Source of the DNA: a virus
Virus record (IMG/VR): IMGVR_UViG_3300032116_001113
Coordinates: 1-26,962 of that record
DNA: 26,962 nt
Strand: one strand, 5' to 3'
Shown: positions 13,630 through 24,127 of the stretch, piece after piece
Layout of the letters: every line of letters begins with the position of its first letter
Position numbering within the stretch: position 1 is the stretch's first letter
The notes under the pieces: model-generated
Database searches by the model: none
Told to the model about the DNA's origin: nothing
What the model saw: only the letters and a program-made list of their open reading frames with translations
Position numbers and translations under genes: made by a program

Positions 13630-16290
13630 TTAGAAGTTGATATACAATTTAAATGTTTCAGTTTGTTCAAGTTGTCGAACAAGAGGAGCGATGTTGTTAT
13701 AGTAAATAACTTCACCTGTTCTTTGAGAAATTTCTGGCTGTGTCAACGATGTGATGGTAAGACCAGATGTACCTGTAGTGGTGTTTTCTAATACTGATTC
13801 TTCTGTGATATTATTTATCACAGGTAGCAGATAGATAACGCTATCAGATTCATTGACATAGGCAACCAAATATTTTCCATTACTGTCAGTTGTTACAATA
13901 TCATCAAGATTGTATTGTGATGCATCTGGGACAGTTAAAACAAAACATCCGTTACCTGTGTTGGCAGAGAACAATGTTTCATTGTCGAACGTTTTAATAT
14001 TCTTGATTATTCCATATTGACGAAAATCATTTTCCAAAAAGAAATCTTCTTGGAAATCTTCAATGTTTACTGCGATACCTAGTGTTGTAGCAAACAATTC
14101 TTGTGGAATATTGGAACCATGGCCACCTTGTGGAGAAATGACAGCTCGAAGTTCTCCGTTTGTTCCATCTCCATTAATTGTCAAATCAGCAAACGTGTAC
14201 CCAGTGCCTCGGTCAGTAATAGTGACAGCAGTGATTTCACCATCTACAACTGTAAGTTCAGCAGCAGCACCTTCACCATCTCCATTAATGTTCACAGTGG
14301 TTGTGGCGTTCACATATCCAGTGCCCCCATCTACAATTTCAATGAAATCAATTTGTCCGTTAGTGGCAACGGCATACCCTGCCACGTTTTGATTGATGAT
14401 GTTGGGAAGGTCTGTTGTTTCAATGGTGACAGAACCTGAGGCACCTGTTCCTCCTCCCCCAAGAATCAATACGAAAGCAAAACTATATCCAGAACCGCCG
14501 TTGGTTAAATTCAATTCAGTAACTAAACCACTACCAACTACAGCAGATGCTTCAGCTCCTACACCATCACCCACAATGATGACAGATGGTGTCGTTGTGT
14601 AACCTGATCCTTGGTCTTCCAAAATGATTTCACTAATGGTACCGTTATGGTCAAATCGTGTAGATGTACCATAGAACTTCACAGGAACATAATCAGCAGT
14701 TAAAAATTTCACACGGTCAGCAGCTGGTACTTCGTACAACAATTGCCAGATGTATCCATCTGATAGCGTCTTGGGACCAACTTCTGAGAAACTTGGTTTC
14801 ACAGTGGATGGATTTCCATTATTGTTACTTAAACACTTATATACTCGGAAATTGTCGGAATTGAATACATAGAAATCTAAATCAGACATATCTATTGTAT
14901 CATCATATTGGTCATACACGGTAGCTGTTGTCCAATCAATTCTTCTAGCCAACAATGTGACATCACTTGGATTAACTTTCTTTACACCTAAAATGTTCCG
15001 TTTAATGGAAGAATCATCTGAACGTGCATCTACAGGAGTTGGCGGTGTGGGTTCATTGGCCCATTCCGTTGGTCGTGATAGAAACACATAGAAATAATCA
15101 TGAGGATTTGGATAATTTGTTAATGTAAAGGTGTTGATGGTGACTGTTTGATCCAATGGACCTGTTAGAATCATGTCACCGATGTCAAATGAGGGCTTGA
15201 TGTTGATGGCTGTTCCTGCTTGAGCGTTAGCCAATGTTGTAGCTAGCTTAATGGTGTTGTTGGTCACCTTGATGATGAAATAGTTTGTGGCATCAGTTAA
15301 TGTGGAGATACTTCCTCCATCTTCAGTAAAGATAACTTCTTGACCGGTCACAAATCCGTGTGAGGCAAGATAGAAGGTGTTGTCAATACGCAAAAATGCT
15401 TGATTACTATTTCCTGTTCCAGTAAAATTGATTGCCGATCCGCCGGATGTCAATGACAATTTAAATGTATCTGTTGTGGCATTCACAACATAGTATTCAC
15501 TGTTGTTGGTTAACCCTCCAAGGGTGGTACCACCATTGGAATAATAGGTAACAATTTCACCATTAGATAATCCATGATTCAATGATGTGATGGTTTCAGT
15601 ACCAGTATCAACACCTGTGGTAGGTACTGTGATGCCATGTAAATTCACCAGTTGTGTATCTACAGCTGCACCGTCAATATATTCTTCCATCAATACCAAC
15701 TGAAATGCTGACCCTGATGGAGACCCATCTAGGTTAATGGCAGTAGGAGATGATGCAATGGCATAGGCTCTACTAGTAGCCAACTTAATGGTATCTTCAT
15801 CAATGAAAATCACATAGTAGGATACAGCATTCACCATGTTGGTAATGCCAGTTGTAGCACCATTTTCAAAATATAACACTTGGTCACCTTCATTGAATCC
15901 ATGGTCAACATAAGTGATGGTGTCTTGACTGGTGTTGATTGCTGTATCAGCAAATTCAATACCACGAATGGTCAATGTTGTAACTTCTTCACCAATGGGA
16001 GTTAGAAATTCAATGCTAGTTCCATTGGTGGCAATGTAATCGTCTGTTAAGATTTTATCACCATCAATGTATACTTCCACTCTGCCTGGGGTGTATGCCA
16101 AAGTTTTACCCTTGACATCTTCCCCAGAGAAAGTGGTGTCACCAGCTGTTGCCGAATAGGTGTACATTGTAGTATCTAGTGTGTTCAGAGTGTTCAACTC
16201 TCCACTAGGAACATTCAATGTATTTACAATATCTCGGTGAAAACTGCGTGCTAGTTCCGTCCGGAACCTAATCGGCAATAAAGCTGGCAT
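13630..16290 (-). CDS. gp8: Baseplate wedge subunit gp8, enlarged by inserted modules (886 aa)
   Basis: Both ends and the middle line up with recalled T4 gp8 (334 aa). RFRTELARSFHRDIV near the start matches T4 KFRTEKMLNFYNSI. YFYVFLSRPTEW (about 399-410), ILGVKKVNPSDV and RRIDWTTATVYD (about 433-460) match the gp8 core. SDGYIWQLLYEVPAADRVKF (about 510-529) matches T4 DGYVWEYLFEIP. The C-terminus TGEVIYYNNIAPLVRQLEQT matches T4 SGEMIYMENRPPIIMAMDQT. Two large insertions account for the extra length: about residues 42-385 (a VYIDGDKI-type small domain and three HGF/HGL repeats) and about 560-725 (GSGY-type repeats). gp8 dimers bridge gp6, gp7 and gp10 in T4 wedges. No Shine-Dalgarno is visible; the previous stop is 10 bases upstream. 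Confidence 0.88.
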   Translation of the reverse strand: MPALLPIRFRTELARSFHRDIVNTLNVPSGELNTLNTLDTTMYTYSATAGDTTFSGEDVKGKTLAYTPGRVEVYIDGDKILTDDYIATNGTSIEFLTPIGEEVTTLTIRGIEFADTAINTSQDTITYVDHGFNEGDQVLYFENGATTGITNMVNAVSYYVIFIDEDTIKLATSRAYAIASSPTAINLDGSPSGSAFQLVLMEEYIDGAAVDTQLVNLHGITVPTTGVDTGTETITSLNHGLSNGEIVTYYSNGGTTLGGLTNNSEYYVVNATTDTFKLSLTSGGSAINFTGTGNSNQAFLRIDNTFYLASHGFVTGQEVIFTEDGGSISTLTDATNYFIIKVTNNTIKLATTLANAQAGTAINIKPSFDIGDMILTGPLDQTVTINTFTLTNYPNPHDYFYVFLSRPTEWANEPTPPTPVDARSDDSSIKRNILGVKKVNPSDVTLLARRIDWTTATVYDQYDDTIDMSDLDFYVFNSDNFRVYKCLSNNNGNPSTVKPSFSEVGPKTLSDGYIWQLLYEVPAADRVKFLTADYVPVKFYGTSTRFDHNGTISEIILEDQGSGYTTTPSVIIVGDGVGAEASAVVGSGLVTELNLTNGGSGYSFAFVLILGGGGTGASGSVTIETTDLPNIINQNVAGYAVATNGQIDFIEIVDGGTGYVNATTTVNINGDGEGAAAELTVVDGEITAVTITDRGTGYTFADLTINGDGTNGELRAVISPQGGHGSNIPQELFATTLGIAVNIEDFQEDFFLENDFRQYGIIKNIKTFDNETLFSANTGNGCFVLTVPDASQYNLDDIVTTDSNGKYLVAYVNESDSVIYLLPVINNITEESVLENTTTGTSGLTITSLTQPEISQRTGEVIYYNNIAPLVRQLEQTETFKLYINF
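13812..13819 (-). promoter_or_regulatory. Weak internal late-promoter-like octamer (GATAAATA)
   Basis: GATAAATA, one mismatch from TATAAATA, lies within the 3' part of gp8, about 190 bases before the start of the 1402-residue gene. It may be chance. Confidence 0.25.
14115..14613 (-). repeat. GxGY beta repeats inserted in gp8
   Basis: About residues 560-725 hold four units with GSGYTTTPSVIIVGDGVGA, NGGSGYSFAFVLILGGGGTG, VDGGTGYVNATTTVNINGDG and TDRGTGYTFADLTINGDGT. Two related units occur in the 1026-residue protein at about 18590-18850. Confidence 0.85.
15195..15930 (-). repeat. Three HGF/HGL beta-domain repeats inserted in gp8
   Basis: Residues about 121-200, 229-300 and 303-365 share the pattern 'xHG[FL]xxGxxVxYxxxGGxxxxLTxxxxYYVIxxTxxTIKLATT' (for example VDHGFNEGDQVLYFENGATT and LNHGLSNGEIVTYYSNGGTT). 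The units are strongly diverged in DNA but clearly homologous in protein. Confidence 0.85.
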
Positions 16291-16300
16291 TAGTTTTTAA

Positions 16301-16759
16301 TTATGAAAGTGTGACAGTCCAAGTAATGGTCATAGCGTCAGATGCACCCTTGTTCACTACTGAGAACACAGTGCGGCACAACATGGTACCTGATGATGAA
16401 GCATTGAAGATACCTGCTTCTACAAGAGCGCCAGTACCTGTGCCTGCAGGGAATGTGCAAACATATTGTACTGAGTCGTTGCTGCTTGATGATGTGGTTT
16501 GTGTTGAAGATGTCAAACCTGTACGTGAACCTGATACAGCAGCAATAAGTGCAGTTTGTCCAGCTGATGCTGAAGTATTGTCAGTACCCACTTCCATGTG
16601 TGACATTACGCCTGATGATGTGCCAATCATACGTGATGTGATGTAGGCCTTACCTACAGTAACTACAAGATTGTCGATGTTACGTTCTTCTTTCACGACA
16701 CCATTTTCATCGTGAACAACAATCTTAACCTTACCGGTTGCTTTGATTAATTCTTCCAT
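16301..16759 (-). CDS. Small conserved virion protein (152 aa)
   Basis: The product starts MEELIKATGKVKIVVHDENG. It contains RNIDNLVVTVGKAYITSRMI, SGVMSHMEVGTDNTSASAGQ, GTGTGALVEAGIFNASSSGT and MLCRTVFSVVNKGASDAMTI, ending TWTVTLS. This block order matches, from memory, a small structural protein common in T4-like cyanophages and pelagiphages and in some prophages, usually annotated as tail-fibre or virion protein. It is all-beta in appearance, with no enzyme motif. Expression signals are the best in the window: exact TATAAATA at 16809-16816 and AGAGGA about 6 bases before the ATG. This suggests many copies per virion or strong demand. It lies between the repeat-tailed protein and gp8. Confidence 0.78.
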   Translation of the reverse strand: MEELIKATGKVKIVVHDENGVVKEERNIDNLVVTVGKAYITSRMIGTSSGVMSHMEVGTDNTSASAGQTALIAAVSGSRTGLTSSTQTTSSSSNDSVQYVCTFPAGTGTGALVEAGIFNASSSGTMLCRTVFSVVNKGASDAMTITWTVTLS

Positions 16760-16822: not shown

Positions 16823-19800
16823 TTATAAACTATATCCAGTTCCAACATAATCTCCTGCCACATACGGTGATGCAGAGAATCTACCGTTCACGAAATAACT
16901 ATCTACCCAGATGGTTCCACCCGCATCCGTTACAGTTTGTGAGTCAGAAACATTCTTTTGTGGTTCTAGAACATTGGCGTCAGAGACAGTTACCGTGTCT
17001 GTTGGAATTAGGTAATCAATGTCAAATGCTGTTGCGTCTGACAATGTGATTTCTTCCACTAAATCACTGCTTGCGTCATTAAGTTGTGTGAAATCTGTTG
17101 CTATATCATCAACAAGTGTGAACGTATCTGAGAGTCCAAGTGTAATTTCTTTCACAAATGTTTCAGAAGTACTTATACTATCAGTTGCAGTATTGTTTAC
17201 ACTTAATGATACCACATCTACAAGTGGAAGATTTTCAGACAATTCACTGGTGTCATCATGTGTTTGTAGGAATTCAATTTCTGTAACAGTATTTAATGAA
17301 AGTTGTTCTGAGAATGAGAAATCCTTATCTTTTGTAACTGTTTCTGTGATGTTAACACTATCAGACAATTCCACTGGAATTACAATCAACACATCTAAAC
17401 TATCTGAAGATGAAACACTATCTGACAAAGCAATTGTGGTTTCTACTGATAAGTTGTCAATGAAATTTTGTGAATCAGATAATGTGTATTCAATGTTTTT
17501 TGTAAGAACATCGGTTGTAATAATACTATCAGATTTTTCAAGTTCTGTGTTTATTGTATTTACATTATCAGTAATGGATTGTGTATCAGTAAACACATAT
17601 TCAGTATTTAATGCAATGTTATCTACGACACCCACATCTTCTTGTAAATCTGATGTTGCGTCATTTTGTTGATTGAAGTTTACATTGGTAGTATCAGACA
17701 ATGTAATAGTATCTGTGAATACCATGTCAGTCACAAATGTTGTAACGTGTGATGTTGAAACTGAATCAACGTATGCGTTTTCTGTTTCTAGTACTGTATC
17801 ATCTGTTGTCGTGAATGTGTCAGATAAAGATTTTTCTACAGCAAATGATGTGACATCAACTGTAGACACATCTTCTTGTAAATCAGATGTTACGTCATTT
17901 TGTTGGTCAAAATCTTGGAACAAACTATCAGTGATGGTTAAACTATCGGTAAGTGCTATGGTTACACCAAGAATTGCTTCATCCGTTACCGTGGTGCTAT
18001 CACTTAATGGTTTTTCCACATCTTGTGCTAACACATCACCTGTTGTCACAACATCAGTTGCACCAAGACTTGTATCCATTGTCAACACATCTGTTGTGGA
18101 TACGGTGTCTGAAGGAGTTTCAAGATATACAATAGCTACTTGTGCTACATCAGATACAGATACCGTGTCTGTGGTTACGGGGCGACTGATGGCTTTGGCC
18201 ACCACTTCTGATACTGTAACTGTTTCTTCCAATTCACGATATGGCAAATCTTCAATGTCCACTTGATTGAAATCATCATCCACTGTGATTTCTTCTGGTG
18301 TAAGGTTACCAGTCAACAACAAATTGGAGAACATCTTGAAGCCCGCAGGATGTGAGCTCTTTAAATATGTGCTCTTCCAGTTGGATAATTGTTCTGTGGT
18401 TTCAATGACATAAGAATATGGTTGATAATAATCATTGTCTTGAAGTGTGATGATGTCTGACAAGAAGCCGGCATTATCAACATATTCACCAGGTGCATGA
18501 TAGATGTGACCTGTGGCAAACGTGATGGCGGCAGTTGAAGAACCTGAACGACCATTATTGAAGTCCACGGAGAAGGTTTTCACAGGAGTATATCCGGTGG
18601 AAATGTTCACTTCAAACACAGCTCCAGTACCTGAACCCGAGGCGGTCAGCGTTGTTAAAGGAAGTCCTGTGGAGGGATTGATTTCTGTGCTGTAGTTGGA
18701 ACCACCGTTCACCACAGTGACTTGTGTGATTTTACCACCAGACACTAACACACGGAATTCAGCACCTGAACCGTCACCCACAAGATTCACAGCTGTGGCA
18801 CCCACGGCATATCCAGAACCACCGTCCAAGATGGTGACAGATTCAATCACACCTGTCTTACGAACCAAGAACTTCTCACCGCTATCCACGATGGACAACA
18901 ACTTAATTTTACCACGGGTAGGAGCAGATGCATAATCACCGAACAGTGTGTAATCTTCAAGGAAGTATTGTTCAGCAAATGTGTTTTCTGTTTTAACTAC
19001 ACGAACAATGGCGTTGTTTTGCAGTAGTTCATAGGCGTAAGCAGCAGACCCAGCGGTAACTTCTGTATAGTCACCAGCAAAATATAACCCTTCTAGACCT
19101 GTTTCTGAAACGAAGTAGGTATCGTCACGACGGAATCTACTACCTGGTTCATCAACACTTAAAACAGAAGTTAACTGCTTAGAGATGGTACCATACGTAA
19201 TGGTTTCATCTCCAACATATTGTACATAAACGTGAGTGTCGTAGAAACCTAAACTTGGTGCTAATGTAAGGTCAGCAGAAATGTCATCTGGAAATTGATA
19301 GTTGGGATTGATGTCAACTTGCAATTGATAGATGTTGGGACGTGATGTTTCATAGACATCAAGGCATCGTGTAGTAACTGTTCGTGCAAAATTACCAGCA
19401 CCTTCAATGTATTCCAAATAATATAACGTGATGACTTTTTCTTTCAGTTCGTAGATGTTTTCATTTGGAAATAAAGTAGTATCTACCTTGATGAAACGTT
19501 TTCTACTCCAACGACCATCTGAAGCACGAAGAAGATAATCACCTGGATATTTTACTGTGGCTGTATCATTGAACATGAAACGGAAAAACATTTCCGTGGA
19601 TGTTTCTGAACCTTTGGCTTCATAGTATTGATTGATGTATTTTATCAAACGACGGTTATCAAGAACCGTATCGCTTGGCATATCATAAGTGTATTGATTT
19701 CTGAAATATGGAATAAACACATCCAATGTTTCATCAATGTCCATCCAATCCATGTTATTGAGCAATACATCATGAACTTCACCTTGATTTTCTAGAAACT

Positions 19801-19903
19801 TATAATAGTGTTCTAGGAAGGTGACAAACTGCGGGTATTCAACCCGAACAAATTCAGGAATTTGTCCTGAAATTAAATGATGCAGCTTTCTCTTAATCGA
19901 CAT
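16823..19903 (-). CDS. Large baseplate-associated protein with Ser/Thr/Asp repeat tail (1026 aa)
   Basis: The N-terminal 140 residues (LISGQIPEFVRVEYPQFVTF, LEHYYKFLENQGE, YYEAKGSETSTEMFFRFMFN) resemble the opening of large virion proteins encoded next to gp6 in T4-like aquatic phages. By position this is the gp7 slot, but homology to gp7 cannot be shown here. About residues 351-438 hold two GSGY-type beta units. About 440-528 contain LQDNDYYQPYSYVIETTEQL and HPAGFKMFSN, conserved in similar phage proteins. From about residue 558 to 990 the sequence is a run of about 20-residue repeats of the type 'LSDSxTxTDxxxxxxxxxxx', very rich in Ser, Thr, Asp and Val. A short aromatic/Gly C-terminus follows (FVNGRFSASPYVAGDYVGTG). 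The start overlaps the gp6 stop by one base (TAATG). Confidence 0.78.
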   Translation of the reverse strand: MSIKRKLHHLISGQIPEFVRVEYPQFVTFLEHYYKFLENQGEVHDVLLNNMDWMDIDETLDVFIPYFRNQYTYDMPSDTVLDNRRLIKYINQYYEAKGSETSTEMFFRFMFNDTATVKYPGDYLLRASDGRWSRKRFIKVDTTLFPNENIYELKEKVITLYYLEYIEGAGNFARTVTTRCLDVYETSRPNIYQLQVDINPNYQFPDDISADLTLAPSLGFYDTHVYVQYVGDETITYGTISKQLTSVLSVDEPGSRFRRDDTYFVSETGLEGLYFAGDYTEVTAGSAAYAYELLQNNAIVRVVKTENTFAEQYFLEDYTLFGDYASAPTRGKIKLLSIVDSGEKFLVRKTGVIESVTILDGGSGYAVGATAVNLVGDGSGAEFRVLVSGGKITQVTVVNGGSNYSTEINPSTGLPLTTLTASGSGTGAVFEVNISTGYTPVKTFSVDFNNGRSGSSTAAITFATGHIYHAPGEYVDNAGFLSDIITLQDNDYYQPYSYVIETTEQLSNWKSTYLKSSHPAGFKMFSNLLLTGNLTPEEITVDDDFNQVDIEDLPYRELEETVTVSEVVAKAISRPVTTDTVSVSDVAQVAIVYLETPSDTVSTTDVLTMDTSLGATDVVTTGDVLAQDVEKPLSDSTTVTDEAILGVTIALTDSLTITDSLFQDFDQQNDVTSDLQEDVSTVDVTSFAVEKSLSDTFTTTDDTVLETENAYVDSVSTSHVTTFVTDMVFTDTITLSDTTNVNFNQQNDATSDLQEDVGVVDNIALNTEYVFTDTQSITDNVNTINTELEKSDSIITTDVLTKNIEYTLSDSQNFIDNLSVETTIALSDSVSSSDSLDVLIVIPVELSDSVNITETVTKDKDFSFSEQLSLNTVTEIEFLQTHDDTSELSENLPLVDVVSLSVNNTATDSISTSETFVKEITLGLSDTFTLVDDIATDFTQLNDASSDLVEEITLSDATAFDIDYLIPTDTVTVSDANVLEPQKNVSDSQTVTDAGGTIWVDSYFVNGRFSASPYVAGDYVGTGYSL
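16935..18230 (-). repeat. Degenerate tandem repeat encoding the SDSxTxTD tail
   Basis: About 22 units of roughly 19-20 codons encode motifs such as LSDSTTVTDEAIL, LTDSLTITDSL, LSDTFTTTDDT and LSDSVSSSDSL. Four places carry a second, longer motif: DFDQQNDVTSDLQEDV, NFNQQNDATSDLQEDV, EFLQTHDDTSELSENL and DFTQLNDASSDLVEEI. These lie near 17880-17925, 17635-17680, 17230-17280 and 17055-17095. Confidence 0.85.
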
Positions 19904-21789
19904 TATACTTCAGTGAATGGACGGCAAGAAATTGTTAATCCAGCAGAAATGTTAGCTACTGAATTGCTTTGACTATCATCTAATGTTAAAATACTGTTTC
20001 GTGATGGAAGTGCTGCCACGGCAAACGCAGAGGTATCTGATGTTCTTACTACTGCACTTGAAATGTTTTGATATAATGGTTGAGGACGAACTGACAAATA
20101 TAATTCATTGATGTTACCAAGATACCCAGATACAATGACATTTTGTAGTGTTACCAATCCCGCATTGTAATGTACTGTTCCAACTGTGGCTATTGGTAAT
20201 CTAGTTTGTGCTTCAATGAATTTAATGGTGCCATATCCATCATCATTGGCAACAGCATCATCACTGAAATCTTGTAGATATCCTTGATATGTCAATCCAT
20301 TAATGTTAGTTACAAAGTTACTGCTTCGAAATGTTTCAGGATCTATGGCAGTTAAGAAATTCAACTCTTTGGAATATCCTGATGTTGTGCTAATACCCAC
20401 AGGAATTCTTTTTTGTAATCGAAGTTTAAACACAGAACTTACAATAGATGTGTTAGTGTTTTTCACTGTTTCTGTCAATTTAGATAAGAAAAATGTTTTA
20501 TCTAATGTTCCCAATTCCGTGTCAAAATAGTTTTCTATTTCATTTGTCACAAGAACTGATAAATCTGAAGGCTTTAAACTAGTCAACTTAGAATTGTAAT
20601 TCACAATGCCTTCAATACCAAGATAAACATATTCTGGATCCACAAATTCATGTTTAATACTCATTACACTACGCGGACGTAGAATAGATTCTTTAATGAA
20701 ATCTTTGTCTGCATCAGTTAACACAGCATTGGTTACTGGGTCAATGGAGATGAACACGGATCCATATACAGGAGGATCATTTTCTTCTCCGCCCCACACA
20801 GTAACTTCTCTGGCTTTTGTGAAATTTTGCTTGATGAGTGTTCTGTAATCTTCTGCTGTGACTGCTCGATTTCTGTTAGCATTGAATTTAGGTGCATTGA
20901 AACGAATGCTATCAATGCTTTCTCTTGATGCTCCACCAGCTGAGGGTTGAATAATAGTGATGTCTACTTGGTCTTCACCATCAATATCACCAACTAAAGT
21001 GAATACTCGTGCGCCGTTGGCATTGGAACCTTCAGACACAAGATAAGTGATGGTGACAATGTTGCCAGCTATCAATTTAGCGCCAACATTATCATCACCA
21101 AATATCACTTGATATTGACCTGCATTGTTTTCTTCCACCCAAAACACTTTGCTAGTGCTAGTTACATCTACAATGCTAGAGGTTTTCACCCAATCAACAC
21201 TTGTTAAATTAGAGGTGGATGTTTGAACAGAAACTTCTACTGTTGAAGTATCTACGTTACCGTTAGGTATAATGAGCGGTCCAGATAAATTATCTGCACC
21301 AATTAAAAAACTATTAGATAGATATACACCCTCAATCAATTCCACATCAGTAAACACAAACTTGTTTTCATTGTTTACTGTGGCAGTTTGAGATTCATTA
21401 ACATTGAATGTATAAGATGTTCCGTTTATTGCAGCATTAAACTTCACAGCGGGTGTAATAGACAATGTGTTACCTACAGTAACATCTTTTGTTACTGACA
21501 AATCTACACGTGCTTTAGCAGATGTTGTGGAACGTGGGCTATATCCTAACATTTTTGCCAAAGAAACCACAGATGTTCTTTTAATGGCAGTGTCAATGAA
21601 CATTTCATTGGCTTGTAAATTGGCAAGAACTGCATTGTAATGTGTGTTATATGATAACACATCTAAAAGCAAATTCAATGCTGAACCAGTGAAATCATAA
21701 TCTGTGAATTCAGGCTGAGCAGCTAGATAGGTTCGTAAATTATTTTTAATGGTATCAAAATCTAATTCTGTGACGTTAAGTTCTGCCAT
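19903..21789 (-). CDS. gp6: Baseplate wedge subunit gp6 (baseplate J-like, 628 aa)
   Basis: The length is close to T4 gp6 (about 660 aa). The N-terminus ELDFDTIKNNLRTYLAAQPE, then FTDYDFTGSALNLLLDVLSY and NTHYNAVLANLQANEMFIDT, is the characteristic gp6 / baseplate J-like opening. SVVSLAKMLGYSPRSTTSAK follows and is also conserved. About residues 280-320 contain GGASRESIDSIRFNAPKF and RAVTAEDYRTLIKQNF, the hallmark of the family. In T4, gp6 dimers form the inner ring of wedges around the hub and pair with gp25 and gp53, which are encoded nearby here. Start and stop both overlap neighbours by one base (TAATG). Only a weak GAGAG sequence precedes the start. The C-terminus (LTISCRPFTEV) is complete. 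Confidence 0.93.
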   Translation of the reverse strand: MAELNVTELDFDTIKNNLRTYLAAQPEFTDYDFTGSALNLLLDVLSYNTHYNAVLANLQANEMFIDTAIKRTSVVSLAKMLGYSPRSTTSAKARVDLSVTKDVTVGNTLSITPAVKFNAAINGTSYTFNVNESQTATVNNENKFVFTDVELIEGVYLSNSFLIGADNLSGPLIIPNGNVDTSTVEVSVQTSTSNLTSVDWVKTSSIVDVTSTSKVFWVEENNAGQYQVIFGDDNVGAKLIAGNIVTITYLVSEGSNANGARVFTLVGDIDGEDQVDITIIQPSAGGASRESIDSIRFNAPKFNANRNRAVTAEDYRTLIKQNFTKAREVTVWGGEENDPPVYGSVFISIDPVTNAVLTDADKDFIKESILRPRSVMSIKHEFVDPEYVYLGIEGIVNYNSKLTSLKPSDLSVLVTNEIENYFDTELGTLDKTFFLSKLTETVKNTNTSIVSSVFKLRLQKRIPVGISTTSGYSKELNFLTAIDPETFRSSNFVTNINGLTYQGYLQDFSDDAVANDDGYGTIKFIEAQTRLPIATVGTVHYNAGLVTLQNVIVSGYLGNINELYLSVRPQPLYQNISSAVVRTSDTSAFAVAALPSRNSILTLDDSQSNSVANISAGLTISCRPFTEV

Positions 21790-22187
21790 TATCGTAATCT
21801 CTCTAGTGTTACTGTTAGTGATGTAGGTTGATTTATACCTAACACAGTGAAGTAAATGGATACTTCATAACTGTTTTCTTCTTCCACAGGAACCACATCA
21901 ACTAAATCTAAACTCACACGAGGTTCATAGGTTTCAATGGTGTTTTCTATGCTTCGTTTCAATGTTTGTGTCGTGATGGGATCAATAGGCTCAAACAGTA
22001 AACCTTGAATCTTAGAACCCACTTCAGGTTGAAACAATCTTTCTCCCATGTTTGTGAATAATAACGTTTTCAAAGATTGTTTCACGGAATTCACATCAAT
22101 TTTTTTCAGCACATCTTGTGTTTCTGGATGTGCCGAAAATGTGATGTCCAAATCTTTGTATAGTTTGTTAGGAGAAAGAATAGGCAT
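21789..22187 (-). CDS. gp25: Baseplate wedge subunit gp25 (132 aa)
   Basis: The length equals the family norm (T4 gp25 is 132 aa). LYKDLDITFSAHPETQDVLK is followed by VNSVKQSLKTLLFTNMGERL and FQPEVGSKIQGLLFEPID. The strongly conserved EPR motif is present at residues 88-90 (YEPRVSL). In contractile injection systems gp25-family proteins bind gp6 and nucleate the sheath by a handshake-like fold. The stop overlaps the gp6 start by one base. No Shine-Dalgarno is visible (TTCAATAAAA precedes the ATG), and an exact late promoter ends 10 bases upstream, so its own transcript would be almost leaderless. Confidence 0.95.
   Translation of the reverse strand: MPILSPNKLYKDLDITFSAHPETQDVLKKIDVNSVKQSLKTLLFTNMGERLFQPEVGSKIQGLLFEPIDPITTQTLKRSIENTIETYEPRVSLDLVDVVPVEEENSYEVSIYFTVLGINQPTSLTVTLERLR
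21830..21837 (-). promoter_or_regulatory. Weak internal late-promoter-like octamer (TATAAATC)
   Basis: TATAAATC, one mismatch from TATAAATA, lies in the 3' end of gp25, about 41-48 bases before the gp6 start. Not distinguishable from chance without transcript data. Confidence 0.28.
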
Positions 22188-22213: not shown

Positions 22214-24127
22214 TTAGACGTTACCAAGATTTAACAACGTGCCACGACCCCCAGAAGCATATCTGTGATTCATGAATGTTCCAAATGTGTTTCTACATCC
22301 ATTTCTGTTAAATGTGACATGGATCCATGGCATTCTGCTGCCTGTGGTCTTGTATTCCAAGAGTAATTGGTCAAAATTTATGTTGGCTTTAATCCATTGA
22401 GCCACTTCGTAGTATTTGTCTTTGCTGAATCCCGGGAACTGCAAGTCGGCTGCTTGTCCATATAAGTGTTGAGAATTCAAAGCACCACCCTCAGGAACAA
22501 AGTCTCGGAATCCGCTGGAAATGATGACATTTGGATATTGTTGTTTGATAGGGTCAATGCATTGTTCTGCAAGAGCCTTTAAGTTACACGCCATGTCTTG
22601 AATGGTGTTTCCATTAAAGGCACGTAATTGGGCTCTGGATGCAGCTGCGTTCGTGAAGTTTCCAATGGTGAAGAAATTGGAAATCTTCAAACTATTGCTA
22701 ATGGTTTCTTGATTGTTAATATCACCACAACCAGGAATCACTTGTCGTCTTGATGGAGCTGGTGTGTTGTCTGTAGCTGTGGCAGGAGGTTGAGGACGAT
22801 TCAATTCTTCTCTTGTAATCAATCCTTCATCAATGGCTTGTTCTTGAAGTTTCTTGATAACAGCAGCATTTTCTTCAAAATTTTCACCCAACAAATCCAA
22901 TGTGAATGTAAGAACTTCTTCACGATTTGGAACTATAAGTTCTGAGAATTCTGGAAGTGTTGGTGTTTTTTCATCTACAGGAGTTAAATCACGCACTGTA
23001 GCTGCATCAAATGTAGGTACTGGTGTAGGTGGTGATACAGACAAGGCGCCTTTAAATGTTCCTTGAAAAATATTTCCTTCTGTGATGGGACTACTGATGC
23101 TTGTTTTAGTAGTTCCCCCCAATTTCATAGTACTACCGGCTTTCACTTTCATTTCACCAGATGATTCAATGGCAACATCAGCACTTTTGATGTCAATTTC
23201 TGTTTTTGCATTCACACTTAAATCTTCATTGGTGTATACTGTCATGGCTTTACCTGAGGCGATATCTATTTTACCCGCCACGTTCAACTCGTAATCACCA
23301 TGTACATGAGTTGTTAAATTACCATCCACCTGTAAGTCACAATTGTTCTTCACATAAATTTTGCAATTACCTTCAATGGTAACGTTGCTGTTACCTTTAA
23401 TTAAAATGTTGTTGTGACGAGCATAAATTTCATAATTGTCACCTACAACTTTATGCACCATGGTACCATTTCTATCTACATCAATGAAAGTACCTGCTTT
23501 ATGATACATGGTGATTCTTTCATTGTCTGTGGTATCATCAATTTCAATGGTGTGTCCAGATTCAGATTCAAATACATGATTATAGGGATAGCTGGCATTG
23601 TAGGCAGTTAAAGGTTGGTCCCAGGTGCCTTCTAAAGCCATAGATACACTTTTTTCACGACCATCATCTTTAGTTTTCACAATGGTCTTAGCAATGGATT
23701 GATTTCTTGCTAAACGATTTGTATCAGGTTCGCTAGTTTCTAGATAATCGGATTTAGGGTATACTTTGTCTGGGTCTTGAAATCCTTTATTGGTTCCGCG
23801 CAATCTATCATAGTAACTTTTACCTGGGACACCTGCCATGGTTCCGATGATGATAGGTTCCTGACCATCTTCACCATCTCGAAAATATCCAGTCACCCAA
23901 GTTCCTTCAACTGGGCCCACAGGCGTAGTACCTATGCCAGACATGGCAGCTGAGGTGATGGGTTGTAGGGGATATGCCCATGGCAAATCAGCAGTAGGTA
24001 GTTCTGCCTTGTCAGCAGTATGATATCCTACAATGCGAACACGACAACGACCCAAGAACATTGGGTCCTTTCTATCTTCAACAACACCTATCCACCAATA
24101 AAATCCGTTACCGTAAATGTTTTCCAT
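22214..24127 (-). CDS. gp5: Baseplate hub/spike gp5 with C-terminal M15-type peptidase (637 aa)
   Basis: About residues 1-130 form the gp5 OB-fold: GNGFYWWIGVVEDRKDPMFL, GRCRVRIVGYHT, LPTADLPWAYPLQPITSAAM, GTWVTGYFRDGED. About 190-350 is a repetitive beta region (IKGNSNVTIEGNCKIYVKNN, LQVDGNLTTHVHGDYELNV) expected to form the trimeric needle-like beta-helix. A Pro-rich linker follows (about 350-465). About 469-620 is a D,D-/L,D-peptidase-like M15 domain: ISNFFTIGNFTNAAASR, IISSGFRD, SQHLYGQAADLQF (H554, D561), FDQLLLE (E591) and WIHVTF (H603). These are the expected zinc ligands and catalytic acid. The T4 lysozyme domain between OB fold and helix is not seen. The enzyme probably cuts peptidoglycan peptide during injection. 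The start follows the hub gene by 5 bases and lacks a Shine-Dalgarno. Confidence 0.92.
   Translation of the reverse strand: MENIYGNGFYWWIGVVEDRKDPMFLGRCRVRIVGYHTADKAELPTADLPWAYPLQPITSAAMSGIGTTPVGPVEGTWVTGYFRDGEDGQEPIIIGTMAGVPGKSYYDRLRGTNKGFQDPDKVYPKSDYLETSEPDTNRLARNQSIAKTIVKTKDDGREKSVSMALEGTWDQPLTAYNASYPYNHVFESESGHTIEIDDTTDNERITMYHKAGTFIDVDRNGTMVHKVVGDNYEIYARHNNILIKGNSNVTIEGNCKIYVKNNCDLQVDGNLTTHVHGDYELNVAGKIDIASGKAMTVYTNEDLSVNAKTEIDIKSADVAIESSGEMKVKAGSTMKLGGTTKTSISSPITEGNIFQGTFKGALSVSPPTPVPTFDAATVRDLTPVDEKTPTLPEFSELIVPNREEVLTFTLDLLGENFEENAAVIKKLQEQAIDEGLITREELNRPQPPATATDNTPAPSRRQVIPGCGDINNQETISNSLKISNFFTIGNFTNAAASRAQLRAFNGNTIQDMACNLKALAEQCIDPIKQQYPNVIISSGFRDFVPEGGALNSQHLYGQAADLQFPGFSKDKYYEVAQWIKANINFDQLLLEYKTTGSRMPWIHVTFNRNGCRNTFGTFMNHRYASGGRGTLLNLGNV

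Follow-up and report, generated by a model that had tools for sequence, protein, structure and literature searches.

An 18-residue repeat arm with in-register long units on a gp7-type baseplate wedge protein and its linkage to a small fibre-like neighbour gene

The window, i.e., the whole stretch of 26,962 bases analysed here, comes from a T4-like phage genome and carries a baseplate operon on the minus strand (Table 1). The genes are ordered gp5, gp25, gp6, a gene for a 1026-aa protein, p152 and gp8, and two large structural proteins lie beyond the gp8-like gene. The closest gp6 sequences among isolates, with 35-38% identity, belong to Pelagibacter phage HTVC008M, Synechococcus phage BUCT-ZZ01 and Methylophilales phages. 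A search for psbA, which would have hinted at a cyanobacterial host, found none; this says little because the cyanophage BUCT-ZZ01 is also without psbA. Within the gp5-like hub gene, a 24-bp tandem repeat is located at 23356-23415.

Table 1. Features of the baseplate operon and of the repeat arm (window positions).
Feature	Position	Strand	Basis or remark
gp8-like	13630-16290	-	
gp8-like insert, aa 61-394 (~330 aa)	15109..16110	-	co-varies with the motif
p152, small fibre-like protein (phrog_5417), 152 aa, probable partner gene of the arm	16301..16759	-	family match and linkage
Baseplate wedge protein with repeat arm, 1026 aa	16823..19903	-	ORF; PF23786; PHROG baseplate wedge families
C-terminal cap, SYF...PYVAGDYVGTGYSL	16826..16924	-	conserved end of the 1026-aa protein
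Repeat arm, 23 units, aa 559-993	16925..18229	-	unit parse
Long unit 21, DIATDFTQLNDASSDLVEEITLSD	17036..17107	-	
Long unit 18, VTEIEFLQTHDDTSELSENLPLVD	17216..17287	-	most degenerate copy
20-aa unit 16, linker SLDVLIVIPVEL	17342..17401	-	VIP invariant in alignment A3
Long unit 11, TTNVNFNQQNDATSDLQEDVGVVD	17621..17692	-	
Long unit 7, SLFQDFDQQNDVTSDLQEDVSTVD	17855..17926	-	
20-aa unit 3, linker VAQVAIVYLETP	18089..18148	-	most relatives also have a 20-aa unit here
Globular gp7-type domain, aa 1-540	18284..19903	-	PF23786
gp6	19903-21789	-	
gp25-like	21789-22187	-	
gp5-like hub protein	22214-24127	-	M15 peptidase-like domain

The 1026-aa protein matches PF23786 (Baseplate_wedge) with 58.7 bits against a cut-off of 27 (8e-16), and its gene occupies the position of a T4-type gp7 between gp6 and gp8. 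Its globular domain is 83-96% identical among close relatives, and ends of the YF..DYVG type, resembling its cap, are also found on the arms of other phages. Searches with the protein or its profile gave no PDB match to the solved gp7 structures. A GGSGY-type module is common to the wedge protein (18596-18871, aa 345-436) and gp8 (14194-14652) with 41-42% identity; it is missing from the relatives L019, L063 and L068 and so seems to move between baseplate proteins. Some gp7-type proteins with arm and motif are very long (1157-1442 aa; L136:758-4942, L171:1480-4953, L134:610-4938), and the C-termini of L171 and L136 have, by eye, the look of LamG-type sugar-binding domains, which Pfam did not confirm at E<=0.01.

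The arm could be parsed completely into units. An ordinary unit comprises 18 aa, namely an 8-aa core (consensus SDSVTVSD) and a 10-aa linker. Its residues are alternately hydrophobic and polar, and core positions 2 and 8 are Asp or Glu in 98-99%. The 23 units contain four copies of an FxQxxDxxSDL motif, which had already been noticed in the earlier note; the pattern F.Q..D..S[DE]L is seen four times in the tail, compared to 0.0003 expected in a shuffled tail. The copies start at aa 665, 743, 878 and 938 (window positions 17911, 17677, 17272 and 17092, minus strand) and belong to units 7, 11, 18 and 21. While the earlier note had estimated distances of 82, 133 and 62 residues, the measured values are 78, 135 and 60 aa, and its equivalents of 4, 7 and 3 units hold with all units aligned. 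Its description of the motif as an interruption of the repeat was wrong: the motif is housed in a 16-aa linker that replaces the 10-aa one, the register is kept, and the copies are thus in-register long units of 24 aa. Generally, changes of unit length (19, 20 and 24 aa) are confined to the linker. Of 35 instances parsed across relatives, 33 have the F 13 aa past the preceding core; in the remaining two, a single copy represented by two near-identical sequences, this distance is 14 aa. From F to the next core it is 29-30 aa in all parsed instances. Where the globular domain adjoins the arm, DFNQVDIEDLPYREL at aa 545 was a candidate for a fifth copy but was rejected, as its F lies 14 aa instead of 11 aa before the next core. 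Antisense to the arm, the plus strand carries two long back-to-back ORFs (17019-17672 and 17673-18266), which probably arise as a side effect of the repeated codons.

Relatives of the 1026-aa protein were taken from IMG/VR, and long units were present in all eight lineages having such tails. Their number is four in the window, L004, L063 and L064, three in L006 and in the group of L007, L009, L012 and L040, two in L019, and one in L060 and L061; L130, L134, L136 and L171 are further carriers. Across 23 copies of 24 aa from the eight lineages, there is no variation at F, Q, D and S and hardly any at the following D, and the L position is always L or F. The same four residues are the sole invariant columns of a 33-row alignment. 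Motif-type long units were seen on gp7-type arms only. Arms on other proteins (L140, L137, L152, L159; L143, L178) have acidic longer units of their own, e.g., DGVAMNDGADTTDG and YALDDSASASDDLST, some of which comprise about 24 aa, so that longer units may be common to such arms in general.

Domain and arm differ strongly in their evolutionary rate. Compared with L004, the N-domain has a dN of 0.027 and a dS of 0.34, and the arm a dN of 0.249 and a dS of 0.76, meaning that the dN of the arm is about nine times that of the wedge domain. Identity to L006 is 95% in the N-domain and 96% in the last 26 residues, the cap, but just 38% in the arm. With regard to these figures, it can be concluded that the arm varies fast between two conserved ends.

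The gene following the arm encodes p152, which matches phrog_5417 over its full length (1.5e-28, residues 10-150 of 152) and phrog_4176 (tail fibre protein) weakly; a homologue of p152 touches PF23140 (GP4 fibre I gp80) at 0.0012, below the cut-off of that family. In the window and in every close relative with sufficient downstream DNA, p152 stands immediately after the arm gene. Neither p152 nor the arm is present in L068, L069 and L070, which are near-identical and represent one lineage; there, the gp7-type protein stops at aa 442. For a broader view, IMG/VR was scanned with a p152 alignment, giving 80 loci of 154 relatives, and the gene upstream of p152 was scored with a unit profile whose training set consisted solely of close relatives of the window protein, z>6 being taken as a pass. 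Among distinct, not closely related upstream ORFs, 36 of 39 passed and three fell below this score, compared to a single pass among 159 other ORFs of the same loci (Fisher 8e-35, which is not a true probability since the loci are interrelated). A gp7-type domain was detectable in 13 of the 39 upstream ORFs and in none of the other 26, yet all 26 passed the arm score. An independent check, the autocorrelation of D and E at lag 18, exceeded 0.2 in 21 of the 39 upstream ORFs and in 2 of the 159 controls.

Among isolates, p152 homologues were found in only one T4-like phage, BUCT-ZZ01, and it is also the one having the arm. Ten isolates whose gp7-type protein was fully read (X1, Moby, pf16, DLP6, RHph_I1_18, Cr30, HTVC008M, OspM_OC, phiM12, Melnitz-3) contain no arm, and their records contain no phrog_5417 match anywhere; S-RIM44 and S-SCSM1, where this protein was read in part and which are counted outside the ten, are also without p152. 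Other isolates with p152 homologues include BcepGomr, Achromobacter phages and phiA008. Among siphophage isolates, BcepGomr, ESV1 and Simon had high arm scores, and those of phiA008, ART, AMA1, CF418P1 and Nvie1 were weak or absent; most of the latter retain a YF..DYVG-type end. A second, shorter p152-like protein of BUCT-ZZ01 (ON615601.1 27428-27814) is encoded distant from the baseplate genes. As the arm is found nearly always just before p152 in many unrelated phages, the two probably work together. This tie between the arm and the next gene is new here, and no account of the arm or of its link to p152 was found in the open-licence literature.

On these grounds, we consider it rather probable that the gp7-type wedge protein, its beta-rich arm and p152 form a short, fast-evolving adhesion or sensing fibre, in which the motif marks in-register long units. 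The C-terminus of a T4-gp7-type wedge protein would be extended into a long, beta-rich repeat arm with a conserved cap, and the arm would be a transferable module that travels with p152, the latter being bound to the arm or to its end. In T4, gp7 is a monomer present in six copies per tail; it is adjacent to gp8 at the outer edge of the baseplate and bears gp9, the fibre attachment protein (PMC3004832). If this stoichiometry holds, each wedge would have one arm and each baseplate six, reaching outwards. We infer the adhesion role from this location, from the variability and from the fibre-like family of p152; hypervariability between conserved ends would fit contact with a varying host surface. 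All length variation falls into one turn of the linker, where the extra six residues would form a conserved acidic loop. Most likely, this loop is a docking or rigidifying site of T4-like arms and not a break in the rod.

In a second, more tentative reading, which we regard as possible, arm and p152 are a so far unrecognised two-gene system that moved between contractile and non-contractile tails. The arm, i.e., the 18-aa repeat with its cap, would have been joined to gp7 in the T4-like phages and to different tail proteins in other phages, p152 would serve as adhesive head or cap, and the long units added in T4-like arms would dock onto an enlarged gp8 or another peripheral baseplate protein. 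Docking of the motif onto p152 itself was rejected, as p152 is also found where the arm has no motif (BUCT-ZZ01 and many others). The gp8-like protein has a large insert in the motif-bearing relatives, which is far shorter or absent in the armless L068-L070, BUCT-ZZ01, L153 and L163. A large insert occurs in 11 of 11 phages with the motif versus 2 of 8 without (Fisher 0.001). Since the lineages are related, this association is kept only as a lead, according to which the long units may dock to the T4-like baseplate.

Whether the arm is folded at all was considered as well. It consists of approximately 20% D+E and 2% K+R and has no Cys, and AlphaFold reached a pLDDT of 29.5 for the whole arm (alignment A3), with values of 22-39 along the tail, and 46.1 for a five-unit motif segment (A4, 33 rows), where only a weak hairpin was predicted around the motif. 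Together with a conserved motif in a hypervariable arm, these values would suit a largely disordered acidic tether whose motif is a short linear peptide that repeatedly binds another virion protein. However, AlphaFold often fails on fibres. Furthermore, the strict 18-aa periodicity, the alternating hydrophobics and the fixed Asp are typical of beta repeats, and indels come in whole units or in one turn, which renders the tether unlikely. Comparisons of the arm with Pfam, PHROGs, NCBIfam and PDB gave nothing convincing: no repeat model (adenovirus shaft, RTX, hexapeptide, EF-hand) was among the Pfam matches at E<=1, and phrog_12240 matched the arm at 3.5e-6 in 6 of 13 relatives. Among phage isolates, tblastn with the low-complexity filter on found no match to either the window arm or that of L063.

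It was also suggested in the earlier note that the arm had grown by block duplication, in which case the motifs could be mere seams of blocks without function. Parts of the data point in this direction. The spacing is in whole units, and in a unit tree the long units form one clade (18/18, support 0.93, to which the shared insert itself adds). Motif copies 7 and 11 share 69% DNA identity. In the group of L007, L009, L012 and L040, exactly the 60-aa, 3-unit block between motifs 18 and 21 is missing. Units 18, 19 and 20 of the L007 type thus correspond to window units 21, 22 and 23, and block gain or loss at motifs therefore does occur in the family. Furthermore, the copies of L006 and L063 look homogenised: L006 has an ordinary 18-aa unit in place of the motif at position 7, and the TDTQANTD shared by many of its units appears to be a sign of homogenisation. 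In the window, however, two units equidistant from different motifs resemble each other no more than a random pair of ordinary units does (permutation p=0.73); the same test comes nearest in L006 (p=0.06). Moreover, 21 of the 23 window units have their match in L004 at the same index, most motif copies match those of L004 by position, and the motif residues are invariant while adjoining units diverge. The window motifs are old and not recent block copies, and the order of the units is old as well, so seams without function are an already weakened and improbable explanation. Even less probable is a metal-binding loop that stiffens the rod (the earlier note had named a calcium site as something to look for), for although D and S are invariant, the second D is nearly so and the surroundings are acidic, Pfam gave no match to EF-hand, RTX or another calcium-binding family, and the spacing of the acidic residues is, by eye, unlike that of EF-hand or RTX.

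The first host contact of T4-like phages outside the enteric group is poorly known, and both genes are mostly annotated as 'hypothetical'. An arm that varies fast between conserved ends, sits on several kinds of tail proteins and is coupled to one small gene would be a likely host-recognition part, and it can be found by a simple rule, an arm gene followed by p152.

For comparison with known systems, T4 gp7 shares the position between gp6 and gp8 and the wedge-type N-terminal domain (PF23786), whereas the C-terminal half of the window protein is a repeat arm, and no sequence match to solved structures was found. The sole isolate found with such an arm on a gp7-type protein is BUCT-ZZ01 (UTS51997.1, 607 aa), which has 18-aa units with the same core (SDTQGLSD) and p152 in its genome, and whose laboratory host is Synechococcus elongatus PCC 7942. 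However, it has only eight units and no FxQxxDxxSDL long unit, and its p152 is not adjacent to the arm gene but stands directly before the gp8-like gene. Some phrog_384 tail proteins of siphophages, e.g., gp17 of BcepGomr, carry C-terminal repeats of the same type, and proteins of this family share the YF..DYVG-type cap followed by a p152 homologue. They differ in their unrelated N-terminal domain, in the location of their gene after the tape measure gene, and in having no FxQxxDxxSDL motif.
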